64,000 nucleotides of DNA from Fragum whitleyi (Eukaryota; Mollusca; Bivalvia; Cardiida; Cardiidae), in assembly GCA_948146395.1 (NCBI GenBank), contig OX411556.1:30703056-30767055 (forward strand). Reading direction: 5' to 3'. Made by a program: the position numbers and the translations under genes. The notes under the pieces were generated by a model that ran no database searches, was not told the origin of the DNA, and saw nothing but the letters and a program-made list of their open reading frames with translations. How positions within the stretch are numbered: the stretch's first letter is position 1; the number at the start of each line of letters is the position of its first letter. Below, piece after piece: positions 28,801-61,189 of the stretch.

Positions 28801-31800
28801 TGATATAAACAGAGACCTGTTAATTGCCCATAGTACTCCGCACACTTGGTGTTGGCGAATTAAGTCTGCCAGAGGTGACATTGGTATTGACCTCTAATGA
28901 GTTCAGTATCAGATAGTCTGAATTTTCACAAATGCATCTTGTTATAAAGAGTTTTTCTCAAAATGTGATATTTCATTATTTGCAAGACGAAAATTAACTT
29001 TTAAGATGTTTATGATTGAGAATTTATTAATAAGTAAAATCTGACAGAGGGTGAATTTGTCACAATTTTATCATATAGAGTGAGCATTATGCTTATACAT
29101 GTATAGTGATTGGACACTGTTTTTACTATGAATAGTACAAGGAGTTTGTGATAATTCACAAGTCTGATGATTAAGTGAAAATGTCAAACTTTCCTTTGGT
29201 CGTTCCATCCAAAGACCGATTTTTTTTTTGTCTTGAGCATATCTCAAAAATTATGCAAGCTAGAATCATGAAATTTCACGGGTGGATAGATCTCACTTAG
29301 GAGAAGTGCAGCAGTGTGCACAAGAACCATGACTTTACTCATCATATTATGTGAGTCATTGCCCTTTGTTGTTTGACAAAGAATAGGCTATTGACCTGCT
29401 CTTAATGGGGGCATAAATGTTTTACAAACATCTCTTGTTATCATAAGATTTTGGAAACTCAAAAGACTGATAATGTCAAAATGATTGTGTGTCAAAGGCA
29501 AACATGGTAGACCCTGATCAAAGATTTCTTTAGGAGCAGTTTTTAGCTCGACTATTCGAAGAATAGGGGGGCTATTCCAGTCACCCGGGCGTCGGCGTCA
29601 GCATCGGCGTCGGCGTAATGCTTTGGTTAAGTTTTTACGTGCAAGTGTTTAAAATCTCTGTTTCTATAAAAGCTATTGCTTTGAAACTTTGCACATGCTT
29701 CTGTGACCATAATATCAGCATCTAGACAAAGATTCATTACTCTGATATTGAATTTAGTGGAATTTTAACCCTTTTCGGACTTAGAAATCTTGGTTAAGTT
29801 TTTACGTGCGAATGTTGTTTATCTGAAATATTTCTGTTTCTATAAAAGCAATTGCTTTGAAACTTTACAAATGCTTCTGTGACCATAATATCAGCCTCTT
29901 GACAAAGATTCATTACTCTGATATTGAATTTAATAGAATTTTAACTCTTTTCGGACTTAGAAAATCTTGGTTAAGTTTATGTGCAAATGTTGTATTACTG
30001 TAATATCTCTATTTCTACTAAAGCTATTGCTTTGAAACTTTGCACATGCTTTTGTGACCATAATATCAGCCTCTAGACAAAGATTCAATACTCTGATTTT
30101 GAATTAAGTGGAATTTTAACCCTTTTCGGACTTAGAAATCTTGGTTAAGTTTTTACATGCAAATGTTGTACATCAGTTATAGCTCTATTTCTACATAGGC
30201 TTTTGCTTGGAAACTCTACACATGCTTCAGTTACCATGATATCAGCCTCTTGACAAAGATTTATTACTCTGATATTGAATTTAGTGGAATTTTAACCTTT
30301 TTCAGACTCAGAAAATCTTTGTTAAGTTTTTACGTGCAAATGTTGTACATCAGTTATATCTCTAATTCTATTAAAGCTTTCGCTTTCAAACTTTGAACAT
30401 GCTTCAATGATCATAACAACAGCTTCTTAATAAGGATTCAATTCTCTGGTATAGAATTTAGTGTATTTATAACCCTCTATGGACTTAGAAATTCTTGGTT
30501 AAGTTTTTACGTGCAAATGTTGTATTTCTGTAATATCTCTATTTCTACTACAGCTGTTGCTTGGAAAATTTACACATGCTTCTTTTACCATAATATTAGC
30601 CCACAGAAAAAGATTCATTACTCTGATATTTAATTTAGTGGAATTTTAACCCTTTTCGGCCTTAAAAATCTTGGTTATGTTTTTATGTGCAACTGTTTTA
30701 TGTTAGTTGTATCTCTGTTCCTACTAAAGCTATTGCTTTGAAACTCTGCGCATGCTTCTGTGACCATAATATCAGCCACTAGACAAAGATTCTTTTCTCT
30801 TGACTTTCATTTTATTGAATTTCCAATGTCGATATTGATTTGCTGTTACTATCCAGCACTAGGAATAGTCGAGCTTCGCTGTCCTCCGACAGCTCTTGTT
30901 ATGACTTTCGTCGCCGGAGTGAAAAAAAACTGTTGATTATTTTTGATATTACATGAGTGTTATTACACTAGTGGAATAACTTTGCAATGAGATAAAAACA
31001 ATGGACAATGTTATATTTTTGCTATGAAAATGACATCATAACGGATCTACTGATGTCATTTTGCAAAGGGTGTTCTATGTTTTTGGGGCATAACATGACT
31101 CGATTATTATCATAATTTGCTTGTTTTATCACCAAACTTCTGATCACATAATGAAAAAAATAATAAATTTGTGCTCATAAAATGCCCAATTTATTAAACT
31201 CGTCATCTAAAACAGATAAAAAGTCAGGGCAGCCTTTTTTTCTGTTCATTGATGACGCATTAATAAATTCAGTATTCAAAGACCACTCGTTCAATAATAT
31301 TATCCTCGATTTACTTGGTCTATGATGTTTGTTTGGTTCTATGTATCAGGGTACTTGAAGAAATACGGTACATGAGTTTTATATTTGAGCCTGTGCTACT
31401 ATTTCCAACAATTTCAAATGTTGCTGAAGTATGAACATGAAGCATCCTTGGCAGCCACATAGTGCAATCAGAAGATTGTTTGACATTCTAAAGATACTTT
31501 GAGATATTATATTTTCTACAAAGCGCAAAGTCAAGATTATGGTCAGACTGTGCAGATGCACAGGCTGGCCAAAGTCTTTATTTCACACACGTTTGAAAAT
31601 GTTGGAAATGTAACATACAGGCTCATTCAATTTATTATTGAAAAGGCCTTATGTGATCTTCAAATAAGAATGTTTCTGTCTTTATTCAGACCTAACAGTA
31701 GAGGGGCCATGGTGGATCCTATGATGGCGGGGACCAGCAATTACAGAGACTATCAGGATATGCAATATGTTGGGAACCGACATGTCAGTGACTCAAGTAT

Positions 31801-34319: not shown

Positions 34320-36359
34320 TTTTTAGCTCACCTGAGCACAACGTGCTTATGTGAGCTATTGTGATCACCTTTTGTCCGGCGTCCGGCCGGCGTCCGGCGT
34401 CAGTCGTCCGGCGTCCGTCAACAATTTCTTTAAATGACATCTACTCCTAAACTACTGGGCCAATTTTAACCAAACTTGGCAGAATTGTTCCTTAGGTGAT
34501 CCCCTTTAAGAATTGCTAAAAGAATTGAAATCGGTGAAAAACTCTGGTTGCTATGGCAACATAAGTTAGAAATTTAAGAAAATCTTTAAAATTCTTCTTC
34601 TCCTGAACAAGCAGCCCTACAGCCTTGAAATTTGGCATGGATGATCAGCTCATAGACCCCAATAAAAATTGCTAAAATCATATCTGTTGGGCAACCAGGT
34701 GCGGAGCACCAGGTGGGAGGGGGTAGTACTTTGGGTAAATTTTGTAATCTTTAACCTTCTTCTTCTTCTGAATAAGAAGCCCTACAGCCTTCAAATTTGG
34801 CATGGAGGATCAGCTCATAGACCTTAATAAAAATTGCTAAAATCATATCTGTTGGGCCACCAGGTGCGGAGCACCAGGGGGGAGGGGGTAGTACTTTGGG
34901 TAAATTTTGTAATCTTTAACCTTCTTCTTCTGAATAAGAAGCCCTACAGCCTTCAAATTTGGCATGGAGGATCAGCTCATAGACCTTAATAAAAAATAGC
35001 TAAAATCATATTTGTTGGGCTGCCAGGTGCGGAGCACCAGGTGGGAGGGGGGTAGTACTCTTGTGAAAATTTTGTAATCTTTAACCTTCTTCTTCTTCTG
35101 AACCAGGAGCCCAAAAGATTTGAATATTGGCATGAGTGATCAGCATATGGACCTTTATAAAAATAGCCAAAATCATGACTGTAGATTCACCAGGTGCGGA
35201 GCACCAGGGGGGAGGGGGTAGTACTTTTGTGAAAATTTTGTAATCTTTAACCTTCTTCTTCTTCTGAACCAGGAGCCCGACAGATTTCAATATTGGCATG
35301 GATGATCAGCATATGGACCTTTATAAAAATAGCTAAAATCATGACTGTAGATTCACCAGGTGCATAGCACCAGGGGGGAGAGGGTAGTACTTTTGTGAAA
35401 ATTTTGTAATCTTTAACCTTCTTCTTCTGAACCACAAGCCCTACAGACTTGAAAATTGGCATGGAGGATCAGCTCATAGACCTTAATAAAAATAGCTAAA
35501 ATCATGACTGTAATGCCACCAGGTGCGGAGCACCAGGGGGGAGGGGGTAGTACTTTTGTGAAAATTTTGTAACTTTAACCTTCATCTTTAACGAACCAGT
35601 AGCCCTACAGACTTCAATATTGGCATGGAGGATAAGCATATGGATCTAAAATAAAATAGCTAAAATCATGAATGTAGGGCCACCAGATGCGGAGCATTAG
35701 GGGGGAGGGGGAAATACTTTGGATCAATTTTGAAATCTTTAACATTATTCTTTTCCTGGATCAGGAACCCTACAGACTTGAAAATTGTCATGGGTGATCA
35801 ATATATTGACCTTAATAAAAATAGCTAAAATGATGACTGTTGGGTCACCAGGTGCTGAGTGTCTTGGAGAGGGGGTAGTACTTTGGATAATTTTTGAAAT
35901 CTTTAAACTTCTTCTAATGAACCAGAAGTCCTACAGACTTGAAAATTGGTGTGGATGATCAGCATTTGGACATTTATTGAATTAGCTCAAGTCATGACTG
36001 TAGATTTACCAGGTGCAGAGCATCTTGGGGGAGGGGGTGCTTTGTTTAGAATTTTGAATCCCTACAGCCTTTATATTTGACATGGATTGATCAACTCATT
36101 AAGGAAAACTTTAAAAGTCTCAGACTCAGCCTGTATATCTGGCATAGATTAGCTGATCACAGACCTTTTATGAAAAAAAGCTTAAATAAATAATGACCAG
36201 GGGAGGAGCAGAGGGGGGGGGGGGGGGGGGGAAAGGATTATTTCAAATCTTATCTGATTGAAAAAAGTGAAAATCTCTTTTTCTGTGGTTGCATGGACAT
36301 ACCTAGGTAATGAAGCTTTTTTCTCAGGTGAGCGACCCAGGGCCAACGGCCCTCTTGTT
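34320..36359 (+). mobile_element. pearl-like (HINE-type) element, ~165-bp tandem core x~9
   Basis: TTTTAGCTCACCTGAGCAC start; CAGGTGAGCGACCCAGGGCC end with a GGGCCAACGGCCC hairpin and CTCTTGTT. Core unit includes CCAGGTGCGGAGCACCAG and TTTTGTAATCTTTAACCTTC. A poly-G run (about 36208-36230) lies inside. Confidence 0.84.
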
Positions 36360-42580: not shown

Positions 42581-43870
42581 CTATTTTTTCAAGTCCATAT
42601 TTTCGAAACGGAATGGTTCTCCCAACATCGGCAATCCAAATCTTTTCATAATAACATTTGCCCTTTGGACGTCTTGTAAATTAACAGTGCGTCTTTTTTG
42701 GTTGTCAACGTTTGTTTGTTCAAGTACACTGCCTTTTTGTGAATCCTGTTCAAACGCACTTAGAGCTTCATCAATGTATTTTTCCTCGATATCTAAATAC
42801 TTAAACACTTTGGCCAGAACTGTTCGTTTTTCGGCCATCATATCTTCATACAAAACTGGTAGTATTTCATTTCCCTGATTAATAAATTTCTTTACCAAAT
42901 GAATGCACATACACCAAGCGTATGTGAACATCTCTACGGAATTAAAATCTTCACATCTGAATTTAACGGGTACTACTTCAAGATCAAAGCAAAAGTAGTA
43001 ATGCATCACACGGCGAAAGAATGGTACAAAATTCGAAAACCGGTCGTTATCTATTAGTCCCAAAGCCACGTTTTGAGCTGTCTCGTTTGTCATAAGGCCA
43101 AGAAAGGAAGAAACCGTTTTAATGCTGTTTCTATACCCGAACATAAACTTCATATGTGGGACGAATTTGGACAGCACATGAATGTGCTTAGAAGCACAAG
43201 AACGTGTCTTTATACAGTATCTTTGAATCCCTGGCGTAGGCTTGCATAAGATTATCACCGCGGCTACAAGAAGATCTTCATATTGCTGCGTTGTGAGACA
43301 GCCTTGTCGTGTAAGGTGCCCTATATTCGTTAAAGCATCTGGTTCTGACAACAATAAAGTGCCTGGTACCCTTTCAAGAGCTTGACCAAGTAACGTCGAT
43401 CCACACCTGCCTGTATTAGCGACGTAACAAACGTCGCGGGGTTGTGGTATTTCTTTTGAAACTTTGTGGAGTGATGCAAGAGGCATGACTACGACATTTA
43501 CAGCGTGTTTGAATTGGGATATGTACAAGAAAGCGTCTGTGGTCGAGCTGTAGATATCAATATTTTCAGGAACTTCTACAAATACGGCATCCGTTTTGGT
43601 GACGCAATACAGCGATACGTTGTGACGTAAAACGTAATTTGGAGACGTGTACGTTTGGTGCACGCCGATGAAATCGGATGGAGAAACGACGTCAATTAGA
43701 ACAAGCTTTCGTTTCCAGACAATCTTCATCACGTGGCAGCTGACGTCATATCTGGATTTCAGAGGATAAGTATAACGTTGTACGATCAGAACAAACTTTC
43801 GAACTATGGTGTAAGTAATGAAGATGAATATTGATCGTATGTATCTTATCAAATCTCTAAATACGGACAT
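42581..43870 (-). CDS. sulfotransferase-like type II membrane protein, 429 aa
   Basis: Predicted Golgi-type PAPS-dependent sulfotransferase of unknown acceptor. Visible features: a short cytoplasmic N-terminus; one hydrophobic segment at about residues 13-30 (signal anchor); the 5'-phosphosulfate loop NTGRCGSTLL at 152-161; the 3'-phosphate motif YRNSIKTVSSF at 246-256, with Arg247 and Ser254/255 in the expected places; and YEDM at 341-344, the usual YEDL position. Length is typical of carbohydrate-type sulfotransferases. The frame is a single uninterrupted exon with stop TAG (42581-42583). ATG at 43868-43870 is the first in frame after a good acceptor (TTTCTTTTTGCAG ending at 43890), so the 5' UTR is probably spliced. 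It lies tail to tail with PARD3 about 10 kb away. It could belong to a lineage-expanded mollusc sulfotransferase-like family; the exact subfamily is not resolved. Confidence 0.82.
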   Translation of the reverse strand: MSVFRDLIRYIRSIFIFITYTIVRKFVLIVQRYTYPLKSRYDVSCHVMKIVWKRKLVLIDVVSPSDFIGVHQTYTSPNYVLRHNVSLYCVTKTDAVFVEVPENIDIYSSTTDAFLYISQFKHAVNVVVMPLASLHKVSKEIPQPRDVCYVANTGRCGSTLLGQALERVPGTLLLSEPDALTNIGHLTRQGCLTTQQYEDLLVAAVIILCKPTPGIQRYCIKTRSCASKHIHVLSKFVPHMKFMFGYRNSIKTVSSFLGLMTNETAQNVALGLIDNDRFSNFVPFFRRVMHYYFCFDLEVVPVKFRCEDFNSVEMFTYAWCMCIHLVKKFINQGNEILPVLYEDMMAEKRTVLAKVFKYLDIEEKYIDEALSAFEQDSQKGSVLEQTNVDNQKRRTVNLQDVQRANVIMKRFGLPMLGEPFRFENMDLKK

Positions 43871-43891
43871 GTTTATGGACTAGCTCAATCT
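43871..43891 (-). other. 5' UTR splice acceptor of the sulfotransferase-like gene
   Basis: On the minus strand a pyrimidine run followed by TTTTTGCAG ends at 43890, then 19 nt of leader precede the ATG. This suggests a non-coding first exon at higher coordinates, which I could not place. Confidence 0.5.
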
Positions 43892-51044: not shown

Positions 51045-51080
51045 TATATAAAGATCCATATGTCACTGGATGGGTATCAC
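51045..51080 (+). promoter_or_regulatory. candidate TATA-box promoter of the hairpin cluster
   Basis: TATATAAAG at 51045-51053 in a GC-richer context (GGGCCTGGG before it), with an initiator-like TCACTTT near 51077, about 310 nt before the first hairpin and on the same strand. Position and match to the core consensus are seen; its use is inference. Confidence 0.33.
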
Positions 51081-51389
51081 TTTGTATTTGTTGTGTCTTG
51101 GTCAACATGTGAAATTTGGTGAATTCTTGAATTTTCGGATTAAATCGATGGATTAAAATGGGTAAATAAAGATCTTGGATGATATTAATTTTATAAATGT
51201 TGAGCAACATGTGCGTTTTAATCTTATCTCAATTGTGGGCAAAAACGTTACAGGTATTTATATGAAAATCAAAGTCTTTAACCTATTAATTTTTCATACT
51301 TCTTACTTCTAAAATTTCACGACTAACTAAGATACCTGTATATCCTGGAATAAAATTCAGGAAAATGTTAATGTTCCCGTAGCTTTCGA

Positions 51390-51450
51390 ATGTGTAAGTT
51401 GGTTAGGTCCCGGGATTAAAAGAGAACCCGGTTCTTTTTCAACTTTCGCA
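51390..51450 (+). ncRNA. miR-1990-like hairpin 1 (G subfamily)
   Basis: 5' arm from 51393: GTAAGTTGGTTAGGTCCCGGG; the 3' arm ends CAACTTTCGCA. AAGTTG/CAACTT and CCGGG/CCCGG pairs. First unit of the array; carries G after the seed as in miR-1990 itself. Confidence 0.65.
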
Positions 51451-51552
51451 TTTTGGCTACCATTTTATAGTCACATATCTAAAAAGCTCTATTCGCACTA
51501 TGCAGATATTTGATAACGATACAAGCAAGGAGTTACGTATATGAATTAAAAC

Positions 51553-51614
51553 GTGTGTAAGTTGCTTGGGTCCCGAGTTGAAACAGTATCTCGGAACTAG
51601 GTTAACTTTCGCAT
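51553..51614 (+). ncRNA. miR-1990-like hairpin 2 (G subfamily)
   Basis: 5' arm from 51556: GTAAGTTGCTTGGGTCCCGAG; 3' arm CTCGGAACTAGGTTAACTTTC. AAGTT/AACTT and CCCGAG-type pairing close a loop of about 13 nt. Confidence 0.68.
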
Positions 51615-51751
51615 GTTGGCTGCCATCTCCAGGCTATCTGTTTGGAAAATTATTAAAACGGCGGATAAAGAAAACTGTTTAGAACGTGGTTTTATTTTTA
51701 CACAGCTCGAGGTTTATATTTATGTTTCGTAAAATGTTCTTACAGTTTGAG

Positions 51752-51813
51752 GAATGTAAGTTGTGTGGGTCCCGGGGTGAAATAAAGTCGCGTAACCTTA
51801 CCAAATTACGTAA
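51752..51813 (+). ncRNA. miR-1990-like hairpin 3 (weak 3' arm)
   Basis: 5' arm from 51755: GTAAGTTGTGTGGGTCCCGGG. The 3' side (to about 51813) has diverged and pairs only partly (CCAAATTACG against TGTAAGTT), so processing is doubtful. Confidence 0.5.
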
Positions 51814-51904
51814 TTTGGCTGCCATTCCCAAATGACTACAGAAAGGCCACTCCTGTTGTTCAAGATTCACAGAAAGAAGTTAAATCGATATACGGGTAGT
51901 CTGC

Positions 51905-51967
51905 GGGGTGTAAGTTGCCTGGGTCCCGGGTTTGAAATCTATCTCGGTGCTCGGATAACTTTCGCTT
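51905..51967 (+). ncRNA. miR-1990-like hairpin 4 (G subfamily)
   Basis: 5' arm from 51909: GTAAGTTGCCTGGGTCCCGGG, one of the two closest copies to canonical miR-1990. The 3' arm CTCGGTGCTCGGATAACTTTC ends near 51963. Confidence 0.7.
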
Positions 51968-52015
51968 CGACGCTACAGTTCCAACAGAAATCGAATGACA
52001 TCGAACTGAAATAAG

Positions 52016-52250
52016 TGAGCCTGTGCGTGGCATTTCCAACAATTTCAAATGTGTGCAAAGCAAAGACTCTGGCCAGTCTGTGCATCCGCACAGTCTGACC
52101 TAGTCTTCACTACGCGATTTATAGATAGATAAGGTCTTAAAGTATCTGTAGACAGTTTGACAATTTTCTAGTAATAATATGTAACTACGTAGGCGTAGTA
52201 TTTGCACCTCACGCAGCTGCCAAATTGTTGAAAATGTCACACACAAGCCC
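52016..52250. mobile_element. palindromic MITE, TGAGCCTGTG family, inside the hairpin array
   Basis: TGAGCCTGTGCGTGGCATTT to TGTCACACACAAGCCC; centre CTGTGCATCCGCACAG. Between hairpins 4 and 5. Confidence 0.78.
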
Positions 52251-53101
52251 TAACTAATATCTTATCCGCGCACGAAACAGATGGAATTTTTCATATCATT
52301 AGTGAGTATAGTATTAACCCTAGTCAGACTGCAAGAATTGCACAGGCTGGCCAGCATCGACATCTTTTACGTTTTCAAGAAATCCTTCCAAAAAGAAGAA
52401 CTCTACCTGGCCTGCTATGCTTTGTTTCTTATATGATTTGAATTTAACTTTCGTCTGTCAAAAATGAGCAATCTTATACGAAAATACCTACATGAACAAA
52501 GTGTTAATAATTCTCTATGTTTGTATGTTAGAGTACAAAATGGTTGCAGTGTATGTCGTAAACTGACAAATCCTTTATTGTCGTGTTTAAAAAAGATATC
52601 AACTCAAAAGAAATGAGGACATTATTTTTTGAAATCATTGAGAAATGAAACTTAAAAAACTTATTACAGTGGGACTTAGGTTTTCAGTTTCATACTTTCA
52701 CAAGTTAGAAAAATATTTTCACGTGATTAGGATTTTCGTTTCATACTACATTAACTGAAAATTATTCAATTCATCTCTAACATAGCAGTTTTTGTTCAAG
52801 AGTGCTAAATCAAATTCCATGATTTGCAATTCATGACCACCGCACTAAAAGGTACAAGTAAGGACTAACAGTGTCGGTTCCGATCAGAAGCCACATGCTT
52901 AATACTTAATTGAATTTGAATGTTTCGTTGTTTGAGATTTCTGAATCCCGACAGAATATAGTCTTTATTGCCTAACTTTATTTATTTTTTCATTTTTCAA
53001 ACGGTGATGTTTGAAAGTTGTGATATAGGACACTGTGTTAACATGCTATTTTCGATACAGGTTTTCTACCCAAAGGAAAGAGAAGGTTTCGTTGTAGCCC
53101 C

Positions 53102-53166
53102 CAGGTTGTAAGTTGCTTGGGTCCCGGGTTTTCAGATCTTTCCCGGAACTATGTCAGCTTACGCTC
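53102..53166 (+). ncRNA. miR-1990-like hairpin 5 (G subfamily)
   Basis: 5' arm from 53107: GTAAGTTGCTTGGGTCCCGGG; 3' arm CCCGGAACTATGTCAGCTTAC. The 3' arm resembles the CGGGACUACGUCAACUU type of 3p product that I recall for this family. Separated from unit 4 by a palindromic element and about 850 nt of other sequence. Confidence 0.72.
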
Positions 53167-53250
53167 TGTGGCTGCTATATTGAAGGCCTTTCACGTTTTG
53201 GAATGTAGAAGGTGGTTAACTTTTGTTGGTATGTTTCAATGAACGCGTTT

Positions 53251-53380
53251 GCCATGAGTTCGGGATGACAAAATGGTACAAACTGTTTTCAAATAATACC
53301 CCGCTTTGCACGCGCACTTGCGTGCAAAGCGGGGTATTATAGCGCAAACAGTGTGCACCTTTTTTCATTCCGAACCCAGG
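53251..53380. mobile_element. palindromic MITE, GGATGACAAA family, inside the hairpin array
   Basis: GAGTTCGGGATGACAAAATG to TTCATTCCGAACCCAGG; centre GCACGCGCACTTGCGTGC. Confidence 0.82.
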
Positions 53381-53594
53381 ATTTGTAATTTGCGAGTTTT
53401 GACCAGAAAGTCATACTTGATTCTTTCAATGGTCCAGATATTCGTCGCGAGTACTGGTGAATTTTCCAGGGAGCAGAATCGAGAGAGATTAAACTCTGTT
53501 GCAATCAAGTTGTAAGAACTTTTTTCCCAATCGATGTAAAATGAATATTTTAGTTATATGTCCCCTAATAATGGTTGTGTACAATGTCCGTCTA

Positions 53595-53728
53595 GCCGTG
53601 CGTTCAGAATGACCAAACTGTGCAAACTGTTTACAAAATGTACCCCGCTTTGTCCTTGCACCCGTGTGCAAAGCTATGTTAAATTTGCAAACAGTTTTCA
53701 CCGCTTTGGCATTCTGAACGCAGGGCAG
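53595..53728. mobile_element. palindromic MITE, GGATGACAAA family, inside the hairpin array
   Basis: GCCGTGCGTTCAGAATGACC to GGCATTCTGAACGCAGGGC. Confidence 0.78.
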
Positions 53729-53771
53729 GAAAATACGCATAGATGTTTTTTGCAGGGAAAAAACTCAGGCT

Positions 53772-53841
53772 CACAATGTGTAAGTTACCTAGGTCCCAGG
53801 CTTTTGAAAGATCCGCGGGCTTTTGTAACTTGTTAATTGTG
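53772..53841 (+). ncRNA. miR-1990-like hairpin 6 (first A-subfamily unit)
   Basis: 5' arm from 53779: GTAAGTTACCTAGGTCCCAGG; 3' arm CCGCGGGCTTTTGTAACTTG. The base of the stem extends to CACAAT/ATTGTG, giving one of the longest stems in the array. Confidence 0.75.
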
Positions 53842-54009
53842 AACTGATTATAAATTTACACATAGAACTACAAAAGGAAAGAAATCAACGAATTCAATTC
53901 CATCTATTAGGGCTGACTGACATATCTTCAAAAACAAGTGATACTACTCAACGGCACGCACGAAGATGTCTGGTGAAGTTGTATGATATCACGCAATTAT
54001 TAAATGAAC

Positions 54010-54178
54010 CTTAAGGTAGTAGACCCGTATAATATTTCCGCAATATTTCGGACTACACATTCTTTGACAATATTAACCGAGGTTTCCTAATGAAAATCAT
54101 TAGGAAACCTCGGTTTACACTGTTAAAGTTCATTTCTTCCGAGATGTTTCAAAACTATTATTGGTCCACTGCCTTAAT
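54010..54178. mobile_element. palindromic MITE, GGTAGTGG family, inside the hairpin array
   Basis: CTTAAGGTAGTAGACCCGTA to GGTCCACTGCCTTAA; centre CCTAATGAAAATCATTAGG. Between hairpins 6 and 7. Confidence 0.82.
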
Positions 54179-54292
54179 AGATATTGTCCTAGATCTATAC
54201 GATTGTGATCACATTACAATAAAATCTATTATGCGTACAAAGACGACGCCCGAATCATAAGGAGGAATCATGACAATTCAATCTAAAAAGTT

Positions 54293-54359
54293 TGATGTGT
54301 AAGTTACATTGGTCCCAGGCTACACATCTAGACCGCGGACTCTTGTAACTTAAAAATTG
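54293..54359 (+). ncRNA. miR-1990-like hairpin 7
   Basis: 5' arm from 54298: GTAAGTTACATTGGTCCCAGG; 3' arm CCGCGGACTCTTGTAACTTA, ending at 54352. A palindromic element at 54010-54178 separates it from unit 6. Confidence 0.75.
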
Positions 54360-54504
54360 ACAAAATCCAACGAAGATTAGGAAAAATTGAGTATTGTAGA
54401 CTATAAAACAATTTCTTCAAAATGCAGCTGTGTTATAAAACAGCGAATGAAGAAGATTGCTGGAGTTAAACGAGTTGGAGTTAACAAGATGTTTATATGG
54501 GGGT

Positions 54505-54569
54505 CGATGTGTAAGTTACCTTGGTCCCAGGTTATGTCAATACTGCGGACTTTCGTAACTTAAATATTG
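54505..54569 (+). ncRNA. miR-1990-like hairpin 8
   Basis: Consensus A-subfamily 5' arm from 54510 (GTAAGTTACCTTGGTCCC); 3' GTAACTTA at 54555-54562; loop ATGTCAAT. Confidence 0.77.
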
Positions 54570-54707
54570 CCAGTATTCGACAGTTTGGACGAGGAAGTAG
54601 ATGTCGAACAATGCATATTCTTTCTAGTTTGACCAGCAAGGTTAACAGCGGCCGACGAATGTTCGAGTGATATGAATAAAAGTTAATTACAAGATGTCGT
54701 TACAGAT

Positions 54708-54772
54708 CAATGTGTAAGTTACCTTGGTCCCAGGTTAAATCAATACCGCGGACTTTTGTAACTTAAACGTTG
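54708..54772 (+). ncRNA. miR-1990-like hairpin 9
   Basis: Consensus 5' arm from 54713; 3' GTAACTTA at 54758-54765. CAATGT before the seed pairs with AACGTTG after the 3' arm, extending the basal stem. Confidence 0.78.
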
Positions 54773-54905
54773 CCAATATATTACAGTTTGAACGAGAAAT
54801 CAGGTAAAGATGCAATTTCTTTTATTTCACCAATACGGTTTTACAGCGACCGAGGCATGTTCGAGTGAAAGGAGTCGAAGTTTACTACAAGATGTTCCTA
54901 CAGAT

Positions 54906-54970
54906 CAATGTGTAAGTTACCTTGGTCCCAGGTTATACTAATTCCGCGGACTTTTGTAACTTAAACGTTG
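54906..54970 (+). ncRNA. miR-1990-like hairpin 10
   Basis: Consensus 5' arm from 54911; 3' GTAACTTA at 54956-54963. Its spacer shares a GTTCGAGTGAAAGGAGT-type block with units 8-12. Confidence 0.78.
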
Positions 54971-55106
54971 CTATTACTAGTATACGACACTTGAACGAAA
55001 ACAAGTCTAGTACAATGGATTTTCCTTCTGATTACACCATTTAGATTTTACAGCCCCCGAAAAAAAGTTCGAGTTAAAGGAGTTAAGTACAAGATGTCTA
55101 ACGGAT

Positions 55107-55172
55107 CAATTTGTAAGTTATCTTGGTCCCAGGTTTATATGAATACCACGGACTTCTGTAACTTAAACATTG
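55107..55172 (+). ncRNA. miR-1990-like hairpin 11
   Basis: 5' arm from 55112: GTAAGTTATCTTGGTCCCAGG; 3' arm CCACGGACTTCTGTAACTTA, ending at 55165. The T at seed+3 is shared with units 13, 16, 25 and 31. Confidence 0.75.
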
Positions 55173-55303
55173 GCAGAATACAACAATATGGATAAGGAAT
55201 GTGTGACTTGAAATGCATTTCATTTTGGATGTCATGACTGAGATATTAGGCAGCGACCGAGTAATGTTCGAATTAAAATATTCCACAAGATAGTAATACA
55301 AAT

Positions 55304-55367
55304 CGACGTGTAAGTTACCTTGGTCCCAGGTTATATAAAACCGCGGACTTTTGTAACTTTAATGTTG
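55304..55367 (+). ncRNA. miR-1990-like hairpin 12
   Basis: Consensus 5' arm from 55309; 3' arm ends GTAACTTT at 55353-55360, losing the last pair of the core stem. Confidence 0.73.
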
Positions 55368-55446
55368 CCGGAAACAGCAATATGAACGGAGGGTGAGCAA
55401 TACGGGTACCTTCTTCACTAAAGTTTTGTGAGATGTCTCTGTGGAT

Positions 55447-55512
55447 CAATGTGTATGTTATCTTGGTCCCAGGTTTATATGAATGCCGCGGACTTTTGTA
55501 ACTTAAACGTTG
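55447..55512 (+). ncRNA. miR-1990-like hairpin 13, seed variant
   Basis: The 5' arm from 55452 reads GTATGTTATCTTGGTCCC, an A-to-T change inside the seed; the 3' arm (GTAACTTA 55498-55505) is intact. If processed it would have a different target range. Confidence 0.66.
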
Positions 55513-55650
55513 CCTTTATACAACAATATGAGCGGAGGAAGAACAATGTGTTTTTGTCGTATTTCATCACTAGATTACAGACAACAAGCGAGGAAGTTTG
55601 ACATAAAAGAGGTGGAGTATTCAACAATATACATTTGTAGTTAATGGATC

Positions 55651-55708
55651 GATGTGTAATTTTCCATTGCCCCATATTAATATACCACGGGCTTTTGTAA
55701 TTTTGTAA
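55651..55708 (+). pseudogene. decayed miR-1990-like hairpin 14
   Basis: Recognised by position and by ACCACGGGCTTTTGTAATTT on the 3' side. The 5' side (GTAATTTTCCATTGCCCC from 55656) has lost the seed and GGTCCC, so it is probably not processed. Confidence 0.55.
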
Positions 55709-55837
55709 TAAGCGGATGACAACAAGATCATAAATAAGTACAATGGATTAATGATTTTACCAAGTTAGTTTTAGTCAACTATTGAGGAATGACCAAGTCA
55801 TAGAAGTTTGAGTTTACCAGATGATTTCTACATGGTT

Positions 55838-55902
55838 CAATGTGTAAGTTATTTTGGTCCCAGGTTACATGAATACCGCGGACTATTGTAACTTTAACAT
55901 TG
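55838..55902 (+). ncRNA. miR-1990-like hairpin 15 with duplicated 3' arm
   Basis: 5' arm from 55843: GTAAGTTATTTTGGTCCCAGG; 3' arm CCGCGGACTATTGTAACTTT. A 35-bp block holding the 3' arm (55871-55905) is repeated exactly at 55906-55940, offering two alternative pairing partners. Confidence 0.68.
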
Positions 55903-55940
55903 GCAGAATACCGCGGACTATTGTAACTTTAACATTGGCA
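55871..55940 (+). repeat. 35-bp tandem duplication of a hairpin 3' arm
   Basis: Two exact copies of the block GAATACCGCGGACTATTGTA plus 15 following bases. Only the 3' arm is duplicated, not the seed arm. Confidence 0.85.
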
Positions 55941-56004
55941 GAATACAACAATATTAGAAAAGAAACTTCATCTCAACAGTTTAAGAAGGCGACCAATAAG
56001 ATAC

Positions 56005-56249
56005 AGGGGCCTGTCTTACTAGACATCTTACGACCATTCTTTGCACAAGTCAAAAACTTTAGTGGATTCAACAGTAGTTAATAAATATGGAACTCTGTCA
56101 TGCATCATATCATTGGAATCGTCTTGTAAAGACGATTCCAATGAGATACTGCAAGGCAGCATCTAACTTTAATTGAAACACCAGAAACGATTTGTGATTT
56201 TGACTTACGATTATTTTTTTGTTAGAGGTTTAGTAAAAAGGGTCCTTGG
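56005..56249. mobile_element. palindromic MITE, CCCGTTTTACTAAAC family, inside the hairpin array
   Basis: GGGGCCTGTCTTACTAGACA to GGTTTAGTAAAAAGGGTCC; between hairpins 15 and 16. Removing its ~245 bp leaves a ~197-bp unit spacing. Confidence 0.82.
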
Positions 56250-56279
56250 AGTCGAAGTTAACAAGATTGCCATGCGAGC

Positions 56280-56343
56280 CGATTTGTAAGTTATCTTGGT
56301 CCAAGGTAATTATATACCGCGGACTTTCGTAACCTAGATATTG
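56280..56343 (+). ncRNA. miR-1990-like hairpin 16
   Basis: 5' arm from 56285: GTAAGTTATCTTGGTCCAAGG (C to A in GGTCCC); 3' arm CCGCGGACTTTCGTAACCTA. Preceded by a palindromic element insertion at 56005-56249. Confidence 0.68.
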
Positions 56344-56464
56344 TCAGAATACAACAATATTAGCGAAGAAACTGCGATGTTATTCGGGTATCATCCCACC
56401 AGTTTCAGACAGATGACGATTAAGATACAGGAGTTGCAGTTTACAAAAATATCAAAGTACTAGT

Positions 56465-56528
56465 CGATTTGTAAGTTACCTTGGTCCCAGGTTATTATAT
56501 ACCGCGGACTTTCGTAATTTAAATATTG
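56465..56528 (+). ncRNA. miR-1990-like hairpin 17
   Basis: Consensus 5' arm from 56470; 3' arm CCGCGGACTTTCGTAATTTA. First of seven units at a strict 186-187 bp spacing. Confidence 0.74.
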
Positions 56529-56650
56529 GCAGAAAACAACAATATTGGCGAAGAAACTACGATGTAATTCGGATATCATCCCACCAGTTTCAGACAGGGG
56601 TCGAAGAAGATACAGGGATTGAAGTTAACAAAGAATTGTAAAGTGCAGGT

Positions 56651-56714
56651 CGATTTGTAAGTTACCTTGGTCCCAGGTTATTATATACCGCGGACTTTCG
56701 TAACTTAGATATTG
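56651..56714 (+). ncRNA. miR-1990-like hairpin 18
   Basis: Consensus 5' arm from 56656; 3' GTAACTTA at 56700-56707. Near-duplicate of unit 21, 559 bp away. Confidence 0.77.
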
Positions 56715-56836
56715 GCAGAATACATCAATTCTGGGGAAGAAACTACGATGTTATTTGAATATCATCACACCAGTTTCAGAGAGGGGTCGAAGGAAATTCA
56801 GAAGTTGAAGTTTACAAAGAATAGTAAAGTGCAGGT

Positions 56837-56900
56837 CGATTTGTAAGTTACCTTGGTCCCAGGTTATTATATACCGCGGACTTTCGTAACTTAAATATTG
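56837..56900 (+). ncRNA. miR-1990-like hairpin 19
   Basis: Consensus 5' arm from 56842; 3' GTAACTTA at 56886-56893. Near-duplicate of unit 22. Confidence 0.77.
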
Positions 56901-57023
56901 GCAGAAAACAACAATATTGGCGAAGAAACTACGATGTAATCCGGATATCATCCCACCAGTTTCAGACGGAGGTTGAAGAAGGTTCAGAAGTTGGAGTTTA
57001 CAAAAAAATATTTAAGTGCGGGT

Positions 57024-57087
57024 CGATTTGTAAGTTACCTAGGTCCCAGGTTATTATATACCGCAGACTTTCGAAACTTAAATATTG
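57024..57087 (+). ncRNA. miR-1990-like hairpin 20
   Basis: 5' arm from 57029: GTAAGTTACCTAGGTCCCAGG; 3' arm CCGCAGACTTTCGAAACTTA, which weakens one pair of the terminal stem. Near-duplicate of unit 23. Confidence 0.72.
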
Positions 57088-57209
57088 GCAGAATACAACA
57101 ATATTGGCCAAGAAACTACGATGTAATTTGGATATCATCCCACCAGTTTCAGACAGGGGTCGAAGAAGATACAGGGATTGAAGTTAACAAAGAATTGTAA
57201 AGTGCAGGT

Positions 57210-57273
57210 CGATTTGTAAGTTACCTTGGTCCCAGGTTATTATATACCGCGGACTTTCGTAACTTAGATATTG
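57210..57273 (+). ncRNA. miR-1990-like hairpin 21
   Basis: Consensus 5' arm from 57215; 3' GTAACTTA at 57259-57266. First unit of the second 559-bp block. Confidence 0.77.
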
Positions 57274-57395
57274 GCAGATTACATCAATTTTGGTGAAGAA
57301 ACTACGATGTTATTTGAATATCATCACACCAGTTTCAGAGAGGGGTCGAAGGAAATTCAGAAGTTGAAGTTTACAAAGAATAGTAAAGTGCAGGT

Positions 57396-57459
57396 CGATT
57401 TGTAAGTTACCTTGGTCCCAGGTTATTATATACCGCGGACTTTCGTAACTTAAATATTG
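57396..57459 (+). ncRNA. miR-1990-like hairpin 22
   Basis: Consensus 5' arm from 57401; 3' GTAACTTA at 57445-57452. Identical to unit 19 over the hairpin. Confidence 0.77.
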
Positions 57460-57582
57460 GCAGAAAACAACAATATTGGCGAAGAAACTACGATGTAATC
57501 CGGATATCATCCCACCAGTTTCAGACGGAGGTCGAAGAAGGTTCAGAAGTTGGAGTTTACAAAAAAATATTTAAGTGCGGGT

Positions 57583-57646
57583 CGATTTGTAAGTTACCTT
57601 GGTCCCAGGTTATTATATACCGCAGACTTTCGAAACTTAAATATTG
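57583..57646 (+). ncRNA. miR-1990-like hairpin 23
   Basis: Consensus 5' arm from 57588; 3' arm ends GAAACTTA at 57632-57639, as in unit 20. Confidence 0.73.
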
Positions 57647-57759
57647 GCAGAATACAACAATATTGGCCAAGAAACTACGATGTAATTTGGATATCATCCC
57701 ACCAGTTTCAGACAGGGGTCGAAGAAGGTACAGGAGTTGGAGTTTACAAATAACCATGC

Positions 57760-58057
57760 GCGTTGATGTGGTCCCGGGTTGTTATATGACTACCGCGTAC
57801 TATTTGAGCCTGTGTGTGACATTTCCAACAATTTGAAACGTTCGTGAGGTACAAACAGTGAGTAGCGTTGACATACAGGTACTGTTTAATATAAAGTTAC
57901 CTGATGGTCTACACATACTTTGAGACCTTATCTATCGAATAAACTAATAGTGAAGAGACTGGTCAGACTGTGCAGATGCACAGGCTTGTCAGAGTCTTTT
58001 CTTTGCGCATATTTGAAATGGTAGGAAATCTCACGCACAGGCTCATTTAACTTTAAC
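57760..58057 (+). pseudogene. miR-1990-like hairpin 24, split by a palindromic transposon
   Basis: GTGGTCCCGGGTTGTTATA and TACCGCGTACTATT (to 57805) are the remains of the 5' arm, loop and start of the 3' arm. A 241-bp TGAGCCTGTG element (57805-58045) follows, then TTTAACTTTAACAT, the end of the 3' arm. The seed GTAAGTT is also lost. Dead unit. Confidence 0.65.
57805..58045. mobile_element. palindromic MITE, TGAGCCTGTG family, inserted in hairpin 24
   Basis: TGAGCCTGTGTGTGACATTT to TCACGCACAGGCTCA; flanked by CTATT and TTTAACTTT, the two halves of a hairpin 3' arm. Confidence 0.85.
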
Positions 58058-58171
58058 ATAGATGAAACAAAACACAATAACAGGGACGAATAATATACGA
58101 GGGTTCAATACAGCGACCGGGGGATGTTCGATTTAAAGGAGATGGGCCATTTACACGATGCCAAAACGGAT

Positions 58172-58236
58172 CGATGTGTAAGTTATCTTGGTCCCAGGTT
58201 TTATCAATACCGCGGACTTTTGTAACTTAAGCATTG
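58172..58236 (+). ncRNA. miR-1990-like hairpin 25
   Basis: 5' arm from 58177: GTAAGTTATCTTGGTCCCAGG; 3' GTAACTTA at 58222-58229. Confidence 0.76.
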
Positions 58237-58367
58237 GCCAAGAACAATAATGTGGACAAAAAATGTGTGACTTGAAATAGTTTTCATTTTGGATGTCATG
58301 ACTGAGATATTAGGCAGCGACCGAGTAATGTTTGAGTTTAAGTTTGCCACAGGATTGTATTACGGAT

Positions 58368-58432
58368 CGACGTGTAAGTTACCTTGGTCCCAGGTTTTAT
58401 TAATACCGCGGACTTATGTAACTTAAACATTG
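58368..58432 (+). ncRNA. miR-1990-like hairpin 26
   Basis: Consensus 5' arm from 58373; 3' arm CCGCGGACTTATGTAACTTA, ending at 58425. The spacer before it resembles that before unit 12 (GGCAGCGACCGAGTAATGTT). Confidence 0.77.
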
Positions 58433-58644
58433 GCAGAATACAATGAGATAAGCGAGGACTATATCACGTTGCTGGTTATAAAACAGATTGTACCCGTTTG
58501 ATCAATGTTTCATACAGAGATCGCAGAATGTGCGAGTTACAAGATATAGAGTTCACTAAGTGTATAAAGGGATTTGTATTCTCAGACAGTGACAAAAGAT
58601 TGGAAAAAAGGTCTTGGACTTAACAAGAAGTTTTCGTACGAATC

Positions 58645-58705
58645 GATATGCAAGCTATCTCGGTCTCAAATTGCTAAGTACCGCAGACTTCTTCATTGAC
58701 ATTAT
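58645..58705 (+). pseudogene. decayed miR-1990-like hairpin 27
   Basis: GCAAGCTATCTCGGTCTCAA and TACCGCAGACTTCTTCATTG correspond to the two arms, but seed, GGTCCC and GTAACTTA have all changed. Confidence 0.5.
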
Positions 58706-58820
58706 TCAATACATGTATTTGCTTTTAAGGAACCTGTTTGAGAAGGATTGGCATGGAAGAAGAGACAGCCAGTTCGCCATTGAACGGAGACCAAACAACC
58801 ATGCCAAAGCGTATAAACGC

Positions 58821-58886
58821 CGGCGTGTAAGTTACCTTGGTCCCAGGCTGCTTTAATTGCCGCGGATTACCGTAACTTAAACATTG
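58821..58886 (+). ncRNA. miR-1990-like hairpin 28
   Basis: Consensus 5' arm from 58826; 3' arm CCGCGGATTACCGTAACTTA, ending at 58879. Loop GCTGCTTTAATTG. Confidence 0.76.
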
Positions 58887-59040
58887 GCTATATTCAACCG
58901 ATATGGTTACGAGGAAATACTGAACTTATGGTGGACCAATACAAATTTGTAGTAGAAGGTTTCTCCAAAATAAGATTATACTTCTTATACTTCTTCCAAT
59001 TTCAACGGAAGATACCAATGGCAAGTTGATTTAGAAATAA

Positions 59041-59101
59041 CAATGTGTAAGATTGGTCCCAGGTTGTTGTGATTTCCGCGGACTACTTTAACTCATACGT
59101 T
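59041..59101 (+). ncRNA. miR-1990-like hairpin 29, deletion in 5' arm
   Basis: From 59046 reads GTAAGATTGGTCCCAGG: the TTACC after the seed is deleted. The 3' arm CCGCGGACTACTTTAACTCA is also changed. CAATGT/ACGTTG basal pairs remain. Probably not functional. Confidence 0.5.
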
Positions 59102-59225
59102 GATTCAGGTTCACGGGTCACCTTCAATGCGTACAGAGACTTCTCAATACCACATACTACAGAAATATTCGGATGGAATGATGGAAAAAGGGATTTGTCA
59201 TCAAATGGCTCCGAAGCTTCTGTAA

Positions 59226-59379
59226 CAACGTGTAAGTTACCTATGTCACAGGCTATCATTAAGCACCACAGACTTCTCGAGGGTTTAGCGCAAGACTGTA
59301 CTAGGTGTATATACATTGTATATACACTTAGTACAGTCTAGCACTTGCACTGAGCTTTCTTTCTGTAACTTAAACATTG
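59226..59379 (+). pseudogene. miR-1990-like hairpin 30, split by a palindromic transposon
   Basis: 5' arm from 59231: GTAAGTTACCTATGTCACAGG; the 3' arm starts CACCACAGACTTCT and resumes as TTCTGTAACTTA at 59361-59372 after about 79 bp of inserted palindrome (59279-59357). Confidence 0.65.
59279..59357. mobile_element. palindrome, AGACTGTACTAAGTG family, inserted in hairpin 30
   Basis: GAGGGTTTAGCGCAAGACTG to GTCTAGCACTTGCACTGAGC around ATACATTGTATA. Confidence 0.82.
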
Positions 59380-59491
59380 TTATTTCCAGCAAAACGGCCC
59401 AAAACTTGACTTGATAAAACAGAGCGGTAGAAGAGAGGAAGTTTCAACATACAAGGAATGGATACATTTGGAATAAGTGAACCTCGATAAG

Positions 59492-59556
59492 TAATGTGTA
59501 AGTTATCTAGATCCCAGGCTATAGAAAGACCGCAGCCTTTTATAACTTAAACATTC
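59492..59556 (+). ncRNA. miR-1990-like hairpin 31
   Basis: 5' arm from 59497: GTAAGTTATCTAGATCCCAGG; 3' arm CCGCAGCCTTTTATAACTTA, ending at 59549. Diverged but still pairs at both ends. Confidence 0.65.
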
Positions 59557-59650
59557 AAATCGAAGTCTACGGAAAAAAATTGTCAAGTTTTACCTTTAAT
59601 ATTGAAATGTGCAAGGACGAAATCAACAATATGAAATGACATTCATTGAG

Positions 59651-59716
59651 CAGTGTGTAAGTTACACTGGTCCCAGGCTATATTCACGACCGAGGACTTT
59701 TGTAACTTAAACATTG
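59651..59716 (+). ncRNA. miR-1990-like hairpin 32 (last clear unit)
   Basis: 5' arm from 59656: GTAAGTTACACTGGTCCCAGG; 3' arm CGAGGACTTTTGTAACTTA, ending at 59709. Confidence 0.74.
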
Positions 59717-59933
59717 AAACAGAATCCATCGATTAAACAACTACATTTTCAGATTTTGTTTACAGCTTTGAGGAAGGAATTGAAGCCTCGATATGAAACT
59801 TTGAAATTCCATCATTGAAGTCGAGGTCTTGTGCTCTAGAATTTTTTTCTTCCTATTGGAAAAAGGCCTCAAGTTTAAAAATCTACGACTATTTATTTCT
59901 TTAAATCACAGACAGCGTGTAACGTTTCCGATA

Positions 59934-59985
59934 GGAGTAATTTACCTTGTCACAGGCTGCATTTATAGTAAATGAAACAGTTAAA
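59934..59985 (+). pseudogene. possible remnant of a further hairpin unit
   Basis: GAGTAATTTACCTTGTCACAGGCTGC resembles a 5' arm in part (written here only to show the TTTACCTTGTCACAGG core); no 3' arm is recognisable. Confidence 0.3.
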
Positions 59986-60270
59986 TCAACAAACTACATG
60001 TATTGATGTCAACGTCTTCATGAACCAATTTTCAAATTGCAAGTAATAACCGTTGGCTTCGAGAACGTTTTAAGGACTCATTTGGGCATTTTTTGAAAAT
60101 TGACAATTTATTATAAACAAAATTCAAAACCATCAGGGTAACCGTTTATCTTTAGTTTTGTTAGACGCATGCAGTAATAGATCTTGTCCCTGGTTGAAAA
60201 GTACATACAAGTGTCTCTTATCATCTAATAATTCCAGCTGTGATTGTGACGATGTGCTTTTTTTTTTTAC

Positions 60271-60436
60271 TTAAGGTAGTGGACATGTAATAGTTCCACA
60301 ACATTTTGTAGGTAATGAACTTTTACAGTATGAACCAAACTTTCCTAATGATTTTTCATTCAGAAACCTCGGTCAACATTGTGAAAGCTCATGAGTTCCC
60401 AAATGTTGCAGAATTATTATGGTTCCACTACCTTAA
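60271..60436. mobile_element. palindromic MITE, GGTAGTGG family
   Basis: CTTAAGGTAGTGGACATGTA to GGTTCCACTACCTTAA. Confidence 0.82.
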
Positions 60437-61189
60437 TTCTTTCCGTCTTTTCAATTTTCGAATTGTCCAGATTAATTAGACAACAATGTAAGGATTTTGG
60501 ATTAGAGGTTGAACTTTTCCGCATATGAGAGCTTAGAATGAATAAGTATATTGAAATAATTTTTTTTGTTGGGTCCATCGAAATTGTTCAATTCTGATTG
60601 GATGAAAAATTGGTTTCATTTAATCAATAAAAAGCAATTTTGAGTATGCATCTTTTTTGTAAGCTTAAACACAAAATAGTCCAATCAGATATCAGTTTCT
60701 TTTTTGACAAATCTTTACATTTTTGCTTCCTTATATCAAATTAAAAGATTTGAAGAGAATATTTGTTGACTTCATCGAGGAATGAAACCAAAAACCTAAT
60801 ATTACTCATGTAGGAATCCGGTACGCACATTCATAAATAGTCAATAGATTTTTAGTTTCATACCCCGATGAAAATAACATGTATTCTTTTCAATTTTTTA
60901 AATAAATTTCATTATAGAGAGTACAATGAACTACCGATTCCGGAGCGAAATTATGAAATGATTTTTTTTTAAATATTGCAGAAAAAGGGTCAATTTTTGT
61001 TTGACAACAACAACAAAATTATCAAAATACATGTTCATTAATGTCTTATTATTCATATCATAACAAACAAAAGACAAGACTTTGATGCAAGTATTGAACA
61101 AGACGCATACTTAACAATAATGTTTAGAAAATATCAAGAAAAGAGAAAAATAGATCATGCAAATTGGTCCAAAAATATTCAACATAAAA

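Follow-up and report, generated by a model that had tools for sequence, protein, structure and literature searches.

A probable miR-1990-derived microRNA cluster, tandemly amplified in the bivalve Fragum whitleyi

miR-1990 is a microRNA family of molluscs and, as the meaning of the name cte-miR-1990c indicates, of an annelid too. Loci at which a single microRNA family has multiplied are described elsewhere: Xenopus laevis mir-427 comprises 33 precursors over 55 kb and zebrafish mir-430 more than 2000 (PMC10569791), miR-430 is organised in tandem in fishes (PMC10417697), and spider mir-3791 has 34 copies in Parasteatoda, 13 of them within 50 kb, with single copies in two relatives (PMC4987109). 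As for miR-1990 itself, Cgi-Mir-1990 is the highest among the table rows listed for oyster gill (PMC7488030) and miR-1990c-3p is high in the mantle of the pearl oyster Pinctada (PMC6627748), so the parent family is active in bivalves. Here we describe a hairpin array in a 64-kb stretch of Fragum whitleyi DNA (contig OX411556.1, positions 30,703,056 to 30,767,055; hereafter the window, numbered from its first base) and argue that it is very probably a miR-1990-derived, tandemly amplified microRNA cluster under purifying selection.

The array extends over 8.3 kb (51387-59717) and contains 32 unit traces, exclusively on the + strand. With up to two mismatches allowed, the pattern GTAAGTTNNNNNGGTCCC finds 28 matches in the window, all on the + strand and spanning 51394-59674, against a mean of 0.75 and a maximum of 3 matches to the GTAAGTT-N5-GGTCCC pattern in 100 shuffles of the window. 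Units start 143-1198 nt apart (median 196), with 25 of the 31 intervals between 154 and 276 nt. The initial annotation, which had reported this motif array as 32 same-strand units, was right in motif, number and strand, but the units are unequal: 27 align in both arms and five are relics. Its 3' arm fits the 22 aligned units from 53773 on (subfamily B) but not the first five (51394-53108; subfamily A), whose 3' arm differs. Most aligned units have an 11-14-nt loop, and the duplex is bulged. A covariance model built from the 27 aligned units and a canonical miR-1990 gene on contig C9 (the array model) finds 30 places on the + strand of the array, namely the 27 training units and three others at 59040 (E 7.9e-9), 57762 (E 0.0029) and 55649 (E 0.0065), together with 27 weaker - strand matches at the same units, as expected for the complement of a hairpin. 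A candidate 33rd trace at 59937 has 7/21 mismatches and lacks a hairpin. The locus thus appears, as judged from its sequence, to hold tens of precursors of one family, as large single-family clusters do.

Each of the 32 traces was folded and compared with 300 dinucleotide shuffles. In 25 of them the folding energy was reached by five shuffles at most, at least 295 being beaten; the units at 59498 (12/300) and 51756 (71/300) fold weakly, and five traces (55656, 57759, 58650, 59046 and 59232) are relics by this test. The + strand folds at the lower energy in 28 of 32, the exceptions being 55656, 58650, 59232 and 59498. The 27 aligned units form 14-21 of 21 counted pairs. In a MAFFT alignment, which is not fitted to structure, 91.6% of the pair cells hold standard pairs, falling to 28.5-46.8% when partners are slid by 1-3 columns, a comparison that favours the counted structure because it was drawn from the unit folds. 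In nine of the 21 pairs both partners have changed in at least one sequence, not one of the five covariation measures is attained in 500 shuffles, although kinship among units may inflate these tests, and the RNAalifold consensus contains 16 pairs, seven of them changed on both sides. Specifically, the matching changes that the initial annotation had noticed at the stem base are borne out, since every pair between columns 2-7 and 64-69 has at least one sequence altered on both sides, with pair 6-65 unformed in 10 of 26 distinct rows. A stable hairpin in 25 of 32 units, with the presumed guide in one arm and, by covariation, a structure kept in evolution, is what a microRNA gene should display.

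Conservation within the hairpin is strikingly uneven. Among 22 older units (three relics and six young units dropped, relic 59232 included, and the 3p anchor wrong for the unit at 51910), the seed has a mean pairwise identity of 0.99, guide nt 9-13 of 0.59, nt 14-22 of 0.91 and the 3p arm of 0.68, whereas on either side of the hairpin identity drops to 0.28-0.32, close to the chance level; in the older units the arms are conserved above both loop and flanks, as in microRNA genes. These data bear on a rival explanation, a satellite born from a microRNA gene, in which a miR-1990 copy was trapped in a tandem repeat and most units have no function. In its favour, a tandem 186-nt block and a 559-nt higher-order duplication with 4/342 spacer differences resemble satellite growth, and 5 of the 32 units are relics. 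A neutral satellite, on the other hand, should diverge evenly over the unit, and neither the chance-level flanks beside a near-invariant seed nor the older duplicates behave so: four pooled whole-period duplicate pairs differ at 114/445 positions in the spacer, 9/43 in the loop, 17/71 in the basal stem and 7/88 in the 3p arm, but at 0/88 in the 5p arm (Fisher test against spacer, p 1.0e-10 for 5p and 1.4e-4 for 3p). Divergence is therefore uneven in the pooled older pairs and cannot be told from even in the three newest. The initial annotation had offered the amplified cluster and the satellite side by side; we favour the cluster because the spacers have diverged while the arms have not, and regard the satellite as unlikely.

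The 186-nt block neighbours repeat the contrast at a younger stage, with 136/789 differences in the spacer, 4/154 in 5p, 14/154 in 3p, 1/70 in the loop and 8/126 in the basal stem (5p against spacer, p 1.8e-7). Here the whole hairpin is conserved against the spacer, the loop being as conserved as the arms. In a per-position profile of 25 distinct rows, which is biased upward because the units were found by their 5p motif, nt 1-8 vary in one row only and nt 14-19 and 21-22 in at most one row each, while nt 9-11 and 13 are variable. Neither block is uniform: nt 12 is T in 24 of the 25 rows (G in the C9 gene), and nt 20 is A or G. In particular, nt 19 stays C though it is unpaired in most subfamily B hairpins. 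The duplicate-pair test is independent of the choice of 5p motif, and a search by the 3p arm alone is partly so, as 3p pairs with 5p. This search (up to 6/27 mismatches) finds 24 places, with an exact seed upstream in 21 and one seed mismatch at 55486; of the remaining two, 55911 is a duplicated 3p arm and 59076 a relic in which the 5p arm is shortened. Additionally, units whose 3p arm is split by an insert are also damaged in 5p, that at 57759 in the seed and that at 59232 in nt 14-19, with the seed exact.

The 5p arm starts with T in 27/27 units, the presumed guide 5' end being the T of TGTAAGTT, and with arm ends as set by us the weaker duplex end lies at the 5p arm in 26/27. Such a conservation pattern is the footprint to be expected of a loaded 5p guide. 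A source of other small RNAs, such as hairpin siRNAs (small interfering RNAs) or a piRNA (PIWI-interacting RNA) cluster, would find support in the many similar one-strand hairpins in a mobile-element-rich stretch and in their short basal stems; the 5p arm, conserved as a guide would be, with fixed ends and a free centre, the bulged duplex with its 11-14-nt loop and the kinship with a known microRNA argue for microRNAs instead, and we consider such a source very unlikely. Given that nt 1-8, 14-19 and 21-22 are near-fixed while nt 9-11 and 13 vary in some 27 copies, selection might act on pairing of the seed and 3' half to partner RNAs with an open centre, as in decoys or target-directed microRNA decay, which would imply at least one dedicated co-evolving partner transcript; we put this forward as a rather improbable, though specific, idea.

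Kinship with miR-1990 was sought in the whole genome (38 contigs, 1.22 Gb). The exact pattern GTAAGTT-N5-GGTCCCAGG with AGG occurs in 20 places, 19 in the array and one on contig C9 (reversed control, 1). The C9 gene carries the 5p arm AGTAAGTTGATGGGGTCCCAGG, identical to bgl-miR-1990-5p as given in PMC7328434, and scores 62.6 bits with Rfam mir-1990 (RF03684). A mir-1986 hairpin (RF03753, 51.2 bits, gathering score 50) lies about 3.2 kb downstream on the same strand (L011 1416-1478, - strand, contig C9). By sequence, the C9 locus is the genome's ordinary miR-1990 gene, on a chromosome other than that of the array, and its company suggests an ordinary two-gene microRNA cluster.

In the array, Rfam mir-1990 at E up to 10 reports 19 + strand and 2 - strand places, eight with E below 0.1 and two below 0.001, the best at 36.1 bits (E 1.8e-5). 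The weaker matches prove nothing alone, because in the same scan a palindrome reached E 4.8e-4 with an unrelated family. The 5p seed GUAAGUU (nt 2-8) is exact in 26 of the 27 aligned units and equals that of bgl-miR-1990-5p. In an unrooted tree, subfamily A (five units) and C9 split from the other 24 rows, which take in relics 55656 and 59046, with support 100/99; few of the other forks are resolved, and C9 sits on a long branch whose exact place is unsure. Between C9 and the unit at 54714, six stem pairs differ on both sides with pairing retained. Taken together, the Rfam matches, the published 5p arm in C9, the tree and the double changes uphold the link to miR-1990 that the initial annotation had made, and common descent of the array with the genome's own miR-1990 gene is supported. 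We infer an order from canonical gene to subfamily A to subfamily B.

A dispersed, MITE-like (miniature inverted-repeat transposable element) hairpin repeat that resembles miR-1990 by chance was also considered, as MITE-like palindromes are common here, the interior of the array included. A 91-base DNA search with the subfamily B unit at 54714 gives 20 matches, all in the array and corresponding to 20 of the 22 subfamily B units; it skips very common words, so distant copies could be missed, and it reaches close relatives only, because neither subfamily A nor C9 was reported. Together with the confinement of the exact pattern to the array and C9, these 20/20 matches make a transposable origin extremely improbable, and the genome-wide spread that would have spoken against the initial annotation was not seen. 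Without its last three letters, the pattern has 41 exact matches among the first places listed, a listing that puts exact matches at its head and appears to hold all of them; 24 fall in the array, one is C9 and 16 lie elsewhere. The latter are not above a rough chance estimate for 13 fixed letters, and at the loci of 14 of them the array model scored no higher than 14.1 bits. Places with one mismatch (1692 and 384) are no more numerous than in the reversed control (1689 and 1773), give or take a rounding of three.

The features of the array are as follows.
51387-59717, + strand: whole array, 32 traces (motif and array model).
51387-51970, + strand: subfamily A units 1-4, 5p starts 51394, 51557, 51756 and 51910; group with the canonical miR-1990 gene; 51756 folds poorly.
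53101-53169, + strand: subfamily A unit 5, the array's best Rfam mir-1990 match (36.1 bits, E 1.8e-5).
53773-53840, + strand: subfamily B unit 6 (alignment, array model, fold).
54292-54360, + strand: subfamily B unit 7 (alignment, array model, fold).
54504-54570, + strand: subfamily B unit 8 (alignment, array model, fold).
54707-54773, + strand: subfamily B unit 9, 21/21 counted pairs formed.
54905-54971, + strand: subfamily B unit 10 (alignment, array model).
55106-55173, + strand: subfamily B unit 11 (alignment, array model, fold).
55303-55368, + strand: subfamily B unit 12 (alignment, array model, fold).
55446-55513, + strand: subfamily B unit 13, altered seed GTATGTT, the sole case among the 27 aligned units.
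55649-55712, + strand: relic unit 14, altered seed, lacking a stable hairpin.
55837-55903, + strand: subfamily B unit 15, 3p arm repeated at 55911 through a 35-nt tandem duplication.
56279-56344, + strand: subfamily B unit 16 (alignment, array model, fold).
56464-57647, + strand: units 17-23, 5p starts 56471, 56657, 56843, 57030, 57216, 57402 and 57589; 186-nt tandem block including the recent 559-nt three-unit duplication.
57762-57809, + strand: relic unit 24, substituted seed; 3p arm split by the inverted-repeat element after it.
57808-58049, - strand: inverted-end element within the unit 24 3p arm, flanked on both sides by ATTT; inverted relative at 52012-52248.
58171-58237, + strand: subfamily B unit 25 (alignment, array model).
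58367-58433, + strand: subfamily B unit 26 (alignment, array model, fold).
58642-58708 (ends approximate), + strand: relic unit 27, decay in both arms.
58820-58887, + strand: subfamily B unit 28 (alignment, array model, fold).
59040-59103, + strand: relic unit 29, 5p arm shortened.
59225-59379, + strand: relic unit 30, with a palindromic insert (about 59287-59346) breaking the 3p arm.
59491-59557, + strand: subfamily B unit 31, weak fold (12/300 shuffles equally stable).
59650-59717, + strand: subfamily B unit 32 (alignment, array model).

Near-identical recent duplicates thus stand beside broken relics, a continuing birth and death of units as far as the sequence records it. In addition to the three-unit duplication inside the 186-nt block, part of which could be an assembly effect, the units at 55113 and 55310 match those at 58178 and 58374 as a duplicated block. 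Two inverted copies of an element of about 240 nt with inverted ends lie at 52012-52248 and 57808-58049, and by eye a relative of this element sits between mir-1990 and mir-1986 on C9. MITE-like palindromes in or beside the array are found at 54004-54180, 60268-60440, 56090-56165, 53245-53385, 53590-53732 and 59280-59352, the first two of which look like one family.

We propose that a copy of miR-1990 arrived on a second chromosome, where successive rounds of local tandem duplication multiplied a segment of about 190 nt. The units would lie on one or a few long + strand primary transcripts that release many precursor microRNAs upon cutting by Drosha and Dicer, with mainly the 5p arm, UGUAAGUU-N5-GGUCCC[A/G]GG, being loaded; this arm would guide Argonaute to AACUUAC(A) sites, helped by nt 14-19. 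As one identical 22-mer, the 5p guide, is common to 12 of the 27 units, the array would deliver in high dose a guide that combines the miR-1990-5p seed with a constrained 3' half.

Several points weigh against a functional cluster of this kind. The array is known here from its DNA sequence. Basal stems below the guide 5' end are short (about 4-6 pairs) in many subfamily B units, less than in a textbook Drosha substrate, and in a 120-nt context several units (e.g., 55113, 55844, 57030 and 57589) fold otherwise. No array unit reaches the Rfam mir-1990 gathering score of 63, and we therefore term the array miR-1990-derived rather than an Rfam-grade member; the C9 gene itself misses that score by 0.4 bit. 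Regarding the constraint, two of the four pooled duplicate pairs share the unit at 54714, and two pairs were left out of the pool, 54511/54912 with 0/22 differences in 5p and 55113/55453 with 1/22 in 5p and 29/73 in the spacer. In the three newest pairs, which are too young to tell, 5p (1/66) does not differ from the spacer (4/342). Moreover, Biomphalaria miR-1990 reads are more abundant from the 3p arm (PMC7328434) and the high Pinctada product is likewise 3p (PMC6627748), whereas the array keeps 5p and lets 3p change. Finally, no promoter for the array was identified, and Pfam found no host gene among 19 open frames in the window and the next 10 kb (nine scanned at E 0.001, ten at E 0.1), because all three matches fall below the curated cut-off: sulfotransferase PF13469 (E 1.2e-4, 22.9 bits against 27), Spec3 (E 0.013) and DUF4468 (E 0.066). 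A solved-structure search with one open frame returned nothing.

Other candidate readings were rejected. A coding or peptide repeat was dismissed because the spacing is not divisible by three and open frames are interrupted from one unit to the next. A splice-site array would fit the likeness of the seed GTAAGTT to a 5' splice site and the CAG that precedes it by eight bases in a few units; by eye, most units do not keep this feature. A TATATAAA noted by eye at 51045, ahead of the first unit, carries no weight as evidence in such AT-rich DNA. As to a virus or phage as the source, viral contigs scanned for the exact pattern yielded two places, no more than a rough chance estimate for so large a collection. 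On viral contig L013, a stem-loop at 240-320 lies between two open frames resembling phage structural genes and is probably a chance occurrence; that it reaches 36.7 bits against the array model and 24.3 against Rfam mir-1990 shows that chance hairpins selected by pattern can score well. Contig C7 (L014 2079-3204) carries a 66-bp satellite of about 17 copies with a 5p-like stretch and no good hairpin, the other strand of which would carry seed sites for the array guide in 7/17 units. We do not claim it as a decoy or second array, because its best array-model score is low (14.1 bits; GTAAGTT in 7/17 units), conservation of its upstream flank (0.84) is about that of the motif (0.85 and 0.91), and on a rough estimate matches of this length are expected in this genome by chance.

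Elsewhere in the window, a sulfotransferase-like frame (42584-43879, - strand) and the end of an unnamed protein (31700-32353, + strand) have best relatives at 59% and 62% identity; for both relatives the longest contig on record measures 708,278 bases, and the surroundings may therefore be conserved in another species. The named protein relatives are mostly from gastropods. Seven other tandem repeats with units of 145-178 nt lie at 1606-2935, 10762-11925, 21549-22925, 25794-26668, 27270-27956, 29650-30800 and 34581-36038.

If expressed, the array would be an extreme copy-number amplification of a mollusc microRNA gene with the parent gene present as an internal control, would place another animal lineage beside those of mir-430/427 (fish and frog) and mir-3791 (spider), where one microRNA family has grown to tens of copies, and would make it possible to ask why so high a dosage is needed. 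Its many copies are also direct evidence on which guide positions are protected, namely the seed and the 3' half, not the centre.

Compared with miR-1990 (RF03684), the array shares the 5p seed GUAAGUU, the GGUCCC(A/G)GG block and the hairpin register. It differs in consisting of about 27 tandem hairpins instead of the single C9 gene, in a guide 5' nucleotide that is U, not A, in its guide centre and 3p arm (CCGCGGACT in subfamily B, CCCGGGACT in C9) and in the Rfam scores of all its units, which stay below the gathering score. The initial annotation had called the copy number unusual; mir-427, mir-430 and mir-3791 are precedents in kind, while for miR-1990 the open literature searched, subscription papers and supplements aside, makes no mention of an array. 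With mir-427 and mir-430 the array has in common that a single microRNA family is amplified at one locus; the family is unrelated, the frog locus occupies both strands whereas the array keeps to one strand in 8.3 kb, and a role in clearing maternal RNA is described there. Spider mir-3791 is likewise a lineage-specific expansion in an invertebrate, of an unrelated family and with 13 of its 34 copies within 50 kb. A large single-family cluster is thus a known kind of locus, of which the family and the lineage would be new as far as searched, and at about 27 hairpins in 8.3 kb on one strand the array is denser than the figures quoted for frog and spider.

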